DNA of 64,000 nt from contig JANXEO010000001.1 of assembly GCA_025058215.1 (NCBI GenBank), forward strand, positions 1 through 64,000. The letters run 5' to 3'. The stretch is from Candidatus Methanomethylicia archaeon. Lineage in GTDB: Archaea; Thermoproteota; Methanomethylicia; Culexarchaeales; Culexarchaeaceae. The translations under genes and the position numbers were made by a program. The notes under the pieces were generated by a model, which was not told where the DNA came from, ran no database searches, and worked only from the letters and a program-made list of their open reading frames with translations. Position 1 is the first letter of the stretch; every line of letters begins with the position of its first letter. Positions 50,693-51,658 of the stretch are shown here, in pieces.

Positions 50693-51172
50693 TTAATGGT
50701 TAAGTAAAATTAGAATTGGATTTAAACCTAAATTGAAATATAAATTGTAAATATTGTTTGAGATAACCAGGCAATCTACAATTCCAAAATAATGTAAATG
50801 GCTTAAACAATTACAATCTGTAGAACCAAATCTATGTATTGGAATTCCATTAAGCTTAAATATAATTCCATTTGAAACTTTACATTCAAATTTCACATTA
50901 CTACGTGATACACACACAGCTTTAATTTCAGTATTACCTCCACTCAAAAAGTAATCTATATGCCACCTTAACCTCTTATTTTGAGATAAATGTCTTGAAA
51001 CCCTATTGTATAATGCAAATTTTCCACCAAGAGCAGAACCAGTATAAGTGTATATACCAATATTAAAATCAATTAAGCCTAGAGATCCAATATTGGCTTT
51101 TAGAAATTTAGGAAGCCAAATTATAAGTGTGTATACTCCACCATTAAGTGATAAAAGTTCTCTTAAATCCAT
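50693..51172 (-). CDS. GIY-YIG nuclease-like protein (DUF123)
   Basis: 159 residues: GGVYTLIIWLPKFL, IGIYTYTGSALGGK, RVSRHLSQNKRLRWHIDYFL. This is the archaeal DUF123/GIY-YIG-like family. The later half has CxC and SHLHYFG. These proteins are related to GIY-YIG endonucleases, but whether this one cuts DNA is unknown. Its 3' end is separated from the prepilin peptidase stop by one base. Upstream of its start lies the guide-RNA region. Confidence 0.82.
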   Translation of the reverse strand: MDLRELLSLNGGVYTLIIWLPKFLKANIGSLGLIDFNIGIYTYTGSALGGKFALYNRVSRHLSQNKRLRWHIDYFLSGGNTEIKAVCVSRSNVKFECKVSNGIIFKLNGIPIHRFGSTDCNCLSHLHYFGIVDCLVISNNIYNLYFNLGLNPILILLNH

Positions 51173-51188
51173 ACTAGCAATAAATTAA

Positions 51189-51196
51189 TTTTAAAT
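51189..51196 (+). promoter_or_regulatory. TATA-like element upstream of the guide RNA pair
   Basis: ttttaaat centred about 22 bases before the proposed first base of the guide RNA (51214). The spacing fits archaeal promoters. A divergent promoter for the GIY-YIG gene must share this region. Weak evidence by itself. Confidence 0.4.
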
Positions 51197-51213
51197 CTTT
51201 GTATATAAATTAT

Positions 51214-51271
51214 AGGCTGTGAGGAGGAACTCGGGTTCTGAATTTATGATGATGTTAGACCATCTGAGCCT
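51214..51271 (+). ncRNA. C/D box guide RNA 1
   Basis: Order: AGGC (51214-51217), box C gtgagga (51219-51225, one mismatch to RUGAUGA), 12-nt guide ggaactcgggtt (51226-51237), box D' CTGA (51238-51241), 4-nt spacer, box C' ATGATGA (51246-51252), 11-nt guide tgttagaccat (51253-51263), box D CTGA (51264-51267), then GCCT (51268-51271), which pairs with AGGC as a terminal stem. The segment is much more GC-rich than its surroundings. Archaeal C/D RNAs direct 2'-O-methylation of rRNA or tRNA. Targets not checked. Confidence 0.78.
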
Positions 51272-51335
51272 GCGCAACGATGATAGAGGGTCAAAGCACT
51301 GATAAATGACGATGCCGCTATAATTGAGTTGCGCA
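51271..51335 (+). ncRNA. C/D box guide RNA 2
   Basis: A perfect 8-bp terminal stem TGCGCAAC (51271-51278)/GTTGCGCA (51328-51335) encloses: box C acgatga (51277-51283), 15-nt guide, box D' CTGA (51299-51302), 3-nt spacer, box C' ATGACGA (51306-51312), 11-nt guide tgccgctataa (51313-51323) and box D TTGA (51324-51327, one change from CTGA). The stem placement directly outside C and D is that of a C/D RNA. Non-consensus C and D boxes lower confidence a little. It starts on the last base of guide RNA 1. Confidence 0.72.
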
Positions 51336-51539
51336 TTATTTAGGCGTATACTCTTTAGGCTTTATCCAAGCATAAACTGTAGGTGTAGTCTTTATAATTT
51401 CATATACTTGATCCCAAGTTAAACCATATTTACTAGCTAATTCATCAAAGGTGTAATTGTAATGCACCCACTCATAAATGATCCTATGTTTCAATTCTTC
51501 ATTTATATTTGAAGTATCCACAATCTCAGAAATATCCAA
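51336..51539 (-). CDS. Small unknown protein with a possible helix-turn-helix
   Basis: About 67 residues; start TTG 51539 six bases after ggtg (GTG 51548 lies in the core). Helical, with YTFDELASKYGLTWDQVYEIIKTT as a likely helix-turn-helix, preceded by an acidic helix. Stop at 51336 touches the end of guide RNA 2, so transcripts from the two strands meet here. A DNA-binding role is possible; nothing stronger. Confidence 0.6.
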   Translation of the reverse strand: MDISEIVDTSNINEELKHRIIYEWVHYNYTFDELASKYGLTWDQVYEIIKTTPTVYAWIKPKEYTPK

Positions 51540-51658
51540 AATTAACACCAGAAAAGTAGAGATGTTAAAGATGTAAATAAATTTTTATCATTTAAAAAAT
51601 TGAATGAACTAAAAAGATAAATATTTGTCTTATAGTTTAAGATTGGGAAGGGATTGAG

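Follow-up and report, generated by a model that had tools for sequence, protein, structure and literature searches.

Two adjoining C/D box guide RNA genes with a shared base and candidate tRNA targets in a Culexarchaeaceae archaeon

The window analysed here is a 64-kb stretch (64,000 nucleotides) from a Candidatus Methanomethylicia archaeon, and it carries two C/D box guide RNAs, s1 and s2, both on the + strand, which together occupy 122 bp without a spacer (Table 1). A preliminary description had read this segment as two guide RNAs joined end to end, each with its own terminal stem, and the outer ends, both stems and the statement that the last base of the first RNA is the first base of the second all agree with our analysis. 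The shared base is T51271, and the same T is found in three genomes of a sister genus (G001, G002 and G003). Each RNA has boxes C, D', C' and D in this order with guides of 10-13 nt, and the boxes are kept in relatives. Neither a spacer nor a terminator lies between the two RNAs. The gene upstream of s1 encodes a DUF123 protein and is divergent, and a convergent 70-aa ORF follows s2, with its stop codon formed by the three bases right after s2. This ORF has no Pfam match, and it is conserved in the sister genus with 67-82% identity. In the A+T-rich stretch before s1, AATTAATT at about -24 to -31 from s1, an A+T-rich match, is a possible TATA element.

Table 1. Features of the s1-s2 locus, with positions in the window
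Feature	Position	Strand	Remarks
DUF123 gene	50693-51172	-	divergent from s1
A+T-rich intergenic stretch	51180-51213	+	between start of DUF123 gene and s1; partly conserved in sister genus
s1, C/D box sRNA 1	51214-51271	+	sequence, conservation, covariance models, descriptor scan
s1 terminal stem, 5' arm AGGC	51214-51217	+	partner 51268-51271
s1 box C GTGAGGA	51219-51225	+	relatives ATGAGGA or ATGAAGA
s1 D' guide GGAACTCGGGTT	51226-51237	+	identical in 4/4 genomes of the family
s1 D' guide base -5	51233	+	predicted to pair with C50 of tRNA-Gly/Glu/Asp
s1 box D' CTGA	51238-51241	+	sequence
s1 box C' ATGATGA	51246-51252	+	sequence
s1 D guide TGTTAGACCAT	51253-51263	+	complementary to D-arm of tRNA-Asp(GUC), by 11 bp here and 8 bp in G001, or to tRNA-Gly(GCC)
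s1 box D CTGA	51264-51267	+	sequence
s1 terminal stem, 3' arm GCCT	51268-51271	+	T51271 shared with s2
s2, C/D box sRNA 2	51271-51335	+	sequence, conservation, covariance models, descriptor scan
s2 terminal stem, 5' arm TGCGCAAC	51271-51278	+	invariant in the family; innermost 4 bp covary between families
s2 box C ATGATAG	51280-51286	+	k-turn bulge GAT 51279-51281; 51285 covaries with 51324
s2 D' guide AGGGTCAAAGCA	51287-51298	+	CAAAGC core kept in 19/20 listed members
s2 D' guide base -5	51294	+	predicted to pair with U34 of tRNA-Gln(UUG)
s2 box D' CTGA	51299-51302	+	sequence
s2 box C' ATGACGA	51306-51312	+	ATGATGA in sister genus
s2 D guide TGCCGCTATAA	51313-51323	+	complementary to tRNA-Gln D-arm TGTAGCGGC
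s2 box D TTGA	51324-51327	+	sister genus has ATGA, other families GTGA
s2 terminal stem, 3' arm GTTGCGCA	51328-51335	+	next base is end of convergent 70-aa ORF
70-aa ORF	51336-51548	-	convergent to s2

A descriptor made of two box pairs and a terminal stem in k-turn position and spacing was scanned over both strands of the window, and exactly two matches, s1 and s2, were returned where about 0.15 would be expected; twenty first-order Markov sequences gave 0-1 matches each and 3 altogether. A strict box pattern search missed both RNAs. At a permissive threshold nearly all Rfam matches were to C/D snoRNA families and on the + strand, and these covered 51214-51271 and 51272-51329 separately; none reached its gathering score, the best being 22-23 bits against thresholds of 35-50. 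Minimum free energy folding was uninformative (z = -1.0).

The preliminary description had named four box and guide units, three of which (gtgagga-CTGA, ATGATGA-CTGA and ATGACGA-TTGA) stand, whereas 'acgatga' as box C of s2 gives way to ATGATAG. The rejected motif does not fit a k-turn with an 8-bp stem. The stem TGCGCAAC/GTTGCGCA stops directly before GAT-GA, and the k-turn bulge is therefore GAT and box C is ATGATAG. The sixth base of this box C and the first base of box D form a Watson-Crick pair in 12 of 14 distinct sequences and take three forms, A-U here, U-A in the sister genus and C-G in other families; the textbook G-C was never seen. For the stem and the box pair together, 85.7% of cells were paired as compared to 62.6% in shuffles, and the covariation score was reached by none of 500 shuffles. 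Shuffling ignores relatedness, yet between the two sister genera by themselves both bases of the pair have changed. The k-turn of s2, a terminal stem beside boxes C and D, is thus marked by covariation of both its stem and its box pair, while the s1 stem AGGC/GCCT is supported by sequence; clean covariation of the box pair was absent by eye among the listed s1 sequences. The s2 stem has 8 invariant bp in the family of the window's genome (f1) and 3-5 bp elsewhere.

The spacerless pair, with the same flanking genes, recurs in the three sister-genus genomes of family f1, which have 16S rRNA about 95% identical to that of the window's genome (G000), at 86-88% identity, which excludes an assembly accident. 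The junction CTGAGCCTGCGCAACGATG is invariant in these four genomes of two genera, all of which have a fibrillarin gene. A contig of Culexmicrobium profundum (L032), found through its 102-aa protein, begins within the 70-aa gene and does not reach the sRNA site. We searched 398 genomes of the phylum with a covariance model of the pair and then with separate models of s1 and s2; both RNAs, with the same guides, are present in several further families of this class, with values mostly between 1e-10 and 1e-18 per genome. The guides are among the most conserved parts of s1 and s2 between families. The distance from the D' guide to box D' was fixed in 20 of 20 listed s1 and 20 of 20 listed s2 sequences, and the conserved D' cores in these sequences are CGGGT plus one base in s1 and CAAAGC (CATAGC in one) plus one base in s2. 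Given this constant distance, the position-5 rule always points to C50 for s1 and to U34 for s2.

The preliminary description had proposed a search of rRNA and tRNA for complements of the guides, and the best conserved complement of each of the four guides, judged by base pairing, is in a tRNA; the refuting case it had set, that of no guide having a matching rRNA or tRNA site, does not arise. The search of 16S and 23S rRNA gave no conserved target for any guide. The sole strong rRNA match was that of the s1 D' guide to 23S position 2023 (E. coli 1875), a perfect 11 bp in this genome only (L046, L035); the sister genus has the same guide but not this match, and we therefore treat it as chance or lineage-specific. 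The search for G015 and G010 used the rRNAs of G000 as a stand-in, and rRNA matches there are not evidence. The tRNA sets held 40 entries for the window's genome, 45 for G001, 43 for G015 and 37 for G010. A tRNA-Gln was not found in the window's genome, a bin that is 46% complete, and the tRNA-Gln of G001 was used for its guides. With 39 tRNA matches, contig C1 of this bin (445 kb) comes close to the near-complete relative, which has 45, but no tRNA-Gln was found among them.

The D' guide of s2 pairs with the anticodon loop of tRNA-Gln(UUG), its CAAAGC with G31-G36 across the UUG anticodon and further bases with C38-C40, and U34 falls at position 5. The motif GCTTTGG is confined to tRNA-Gln(UUG) in the tRNA sets of G001, G015 and G010. 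What faces G37 in the s2 D' guides is A, T, G or two bases; in s2 and its relatives the guide mostly lacks a pair at G37 and always lacks one at position -1. The mispairing at G37 would fit a methylated G37 that is unable to pair. The D guide of s2 (GCCGCTAC/T) is complementary to the D-arm of tRNA-Gln, and TGTAGCGGC occurs only in the two tRNA-Gln species within the three tRNA sets holding tRNA-Gln. In G001, with one mismatch allowed, neither s2 guide had a better complement than tRNA-Gln(UUG), which tied with tRNA-Gln(CUG) for the D guide; in G010 tRNA-Gln was not the top match, and the D guide has an extra base there. Of 1500 shuffled pairs in each genome, 3 (G001) and 6 (G015) attained the summed score of one tRNA fitting both s2 guides. 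Shuffling one guide at a time gave weak results for some of them (p = 0.32 for s2 D' alone in G001, one mismatch allowed).

The D' guide of s1 pairs with the T-arm of tRNA-Gly, tRNA-Glu and tRNA-Asp and places C50 at position 5. Its D guide pairs either with the D-loop of tRNA-Asp, by 11 Watson-Crick pairs in this genome and 8 in G001, or with the D-arm of tRNA-Gly(GCC). The summed score of both s1 guides on the best tRNA, Asp or Gly, was reached by none of 600 shuffles in G000 and by one of 600 in G001. The register is thus constant for the D' guides (C50, U34), and the D guides are complementary to their tRNAs in a register that is not constant. Position 5 of the s2 D guide lies on A14 in family f1 and on U13 or G12 elsewhere, and not on the G18 of the Sulfolobus-type double guide for U34 and G18 of tRNA-Gln, which makes a methylation-guide role of this guide doubtful. 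The D guides keep their sequence and not their distance to box D, which fits holding of the tRNA better than methylating it.

Overall, s1 and s2 are probably two tRNA-directed C/D guide RNAs, with a probability of about 0.8. Each half would fold into a terminal-stem k-turn of boxes C and D and an internal C'/D' motif, to which L7Ae, Nop5 and fibrillarin may bind, and each sRNP would guide 2'-O-methylation of tRNA. The D' guide of s2 would direct Um34 of tRNA-Gln(UUG) while its D guide holds the D-arm of the same tRNA, and the D' guide of s1 would direct Cm50 in the T-arm of tRNA-Gly, Glu or Asp while its D guide holds the D-arm of tRNA-Asp or tRNA-Gly. It is very unlikely that one or both RNAs are orphan or decayed guides that methylate nothing. 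Box D of s2 is TTGA and its box C is degenerate, and about 28% of Pyrobaculum guides are without a target (PMC7994747), but the degenerate boxes covary and the guides are highly conserved between families.

The tRNA-Gln(UUG) of S. acidocaldarius carries Um34 (PMC7668247), and C/D guides have been predicted there for U34 and G18 of tRNA-Gln(UUG) (PMC7668247, citing Ziesche et al. 2004) and for C50 of tRNA-Gly(CCC) (PMC7668247). Similar to that tRNA-Gln guide, s2 addresses the same tRNA and the same wobble residue U34 and has a second guide on the D-loop or D-arm; unlike it, s2 has A14 in f1 and not G18 at position 5 of the D guide, and its gene is fused to another sRNA. Like the Sulfolobus guide for C50, the s1 D' guide addresses this residue in tRNA-Gly and in other tRNAs that have CCCGGGTTC, but the Glu and Asp tRNAs fit it as well. 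The likeness to the Sulfolobus guides rests on targets and not on guide sequences. The Nanoarchaeum equitans sRNA23 (primer in PMC3491384) resembles the s2 D guide in having GCCGCTACT ahead of CTGA, but its CTGA is followed by ATGATG, i.e., it is in the D' position, and that RNA is circular. Clustered and dicistronic archaeal C/D sRNAs and tRNA-sRNA dicistrons are known (Tripp et al. 2017, as covered in the review PMC7994747), and N. equitans is also cited for them (PMC3491384). Those clusters consist of two or three sRNA genes or of an sRNA joined directly to a tRNA, but s1 and s2 differ in a negative spacer of one shared base that is conserved between genera; no report of sRNAs joined with a negative spacer was met in the papers searched, to which Tripp et al. 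2017 and Lui et al. 2018 themselves do not belong. Since Um34, the predicted U34 and C50 guides and dicistronic sRNAs are all known, the guides of s1 and s2 are of known kinds.

Tandem dual-guide units with C/D-like motifs also bear a superficial likeness to a TIGR array, in which a tandem guide RNA built of C/D-like repeats serves Tas proteins. Such an array would have repeated units and a nearby Tas gene; the locus has two unlike units and no repeats, its guides match tRNA, and no Tas was seen among the nameable neighbours (DUF123, DUF2286, A24 peptidase and family B DNA polymerase), and the probability of this explanation is negligible.

Among members of the class with both sRNAs, most have the pair in one block with the A24 peptidase, DUF123 and ORF102-DUF2286 genes, and the arrangement within the block varies. 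Family f1 has <-DUF123 s1-> s2-> with the one-base overlap, and family f6 has <-DUF123 s1-> s2-> <-DUF2286 with 31-63 nt between the sRNAs. In genus g16 of f6 (G023, G025) the order is s1-> <-s2, tail-to-tail with touching 3' ends, and some f6 genera gave a clear match for s1 only. The two genes are head-to-head in families f7, f8 and f4, 71-83 nt apart (212 in G020), with <-DUF123 <-s1 and s2-> DUF2286-> in f7; in f5 the matches are on different contigs. The simplest reading would seem to be that single sRNA genes of about 60 bp have reversed orientation in situ between some of these arrangements. At L142 and L150 (G023, G025), L154, L172, L173 and L193 (f7), L137 (f8) and L129-L136 (f6), s1 and s2 keep to one locus beside DUF123 and DUF2286 in which single sRNA genes appear inverted, and the two RNAs often have an identical terminal stem (GGGC/GCCC or TAGC/GCTA). 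Some genomes outside the class have both s1 and s2, never adjoining. At L139 (G234), L141 (G358) and L135 (G378), all outside the class, s1 or s2 adjoins a third C/D sRNA whose guides resemble GGATGGGAAG and CATCTCACAC, in G358 with almost no spacer.

The opposite orientations in f4, f7, f8 and genus g16 imply separate promoters there, which raises the explanation that s1 and s2 are two touching transcription units, the s2 promoter lying inside s1 at GAATTTATGATG (51240-51251), about 26 bases before s2. This segment is A+T-rich, but its sequence is accounted for by the s1 elements that it spans, the D'-C' linker and box C', and it has no further conservation; we consider an own s2 promoter rather improbable. 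A dicistronic sRNA gene read from one + strand promoter seems somewhat favoured, with s1 and s2 co-transcribed and then cut. With no spacer between them, s1 and s2 could be released separately from a shared transcript only if it were cut at or next to 51271.

If the transcript stayed uncut, one 122-nt RNA would carry two sRNPs side by side and act on several tRNAs. The shared base and zero spacer, unchanged over two genera, speak for such an RNA, as does the s2 stem, which has grown to 8 invariant bp and would hold two k-turns apart. Outside f1, however, the genes are separate and often on opposite strands, so joint action is unneeded, and both terminal stems are kept as in separate RNAs; a lasting 122-nt RNA is unlikely, and cutting would in our view be the more likely course. 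The long s2 stem, 8 bp here and shorter elsewhere, may signal or bar the cut. Vertebrate tandem C/D scaRNAs (scaRNA2, 9 and 17), which guide snRNA modification, also have two C/D domains in one RNA, but they are much longer and no homology is claimed. A more specific form, in which the RNA is never separated and serves as a bipartite guide whose D' guides methylate U34 and C50 and whose D guides only hold the D-arm, is distinctly improbable; if true, this division of labour would explain the fixed D' spacing as compared to the drifting D spacing.

To the known kinds of guides this analysis adds the overlap without a spacer, the covariation of a box pair that is not G-C, and the history of a locus that is kept over much of the class while single 60-bp sRNA genes within it appear flipped in place. 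Each of the four guides now has a candidate target in these uncultured archaea, the tRNA-Gln wobble base being one of them. The pair also offers a clean way to test how sRNA ends arise when there is no spacer for trimming.
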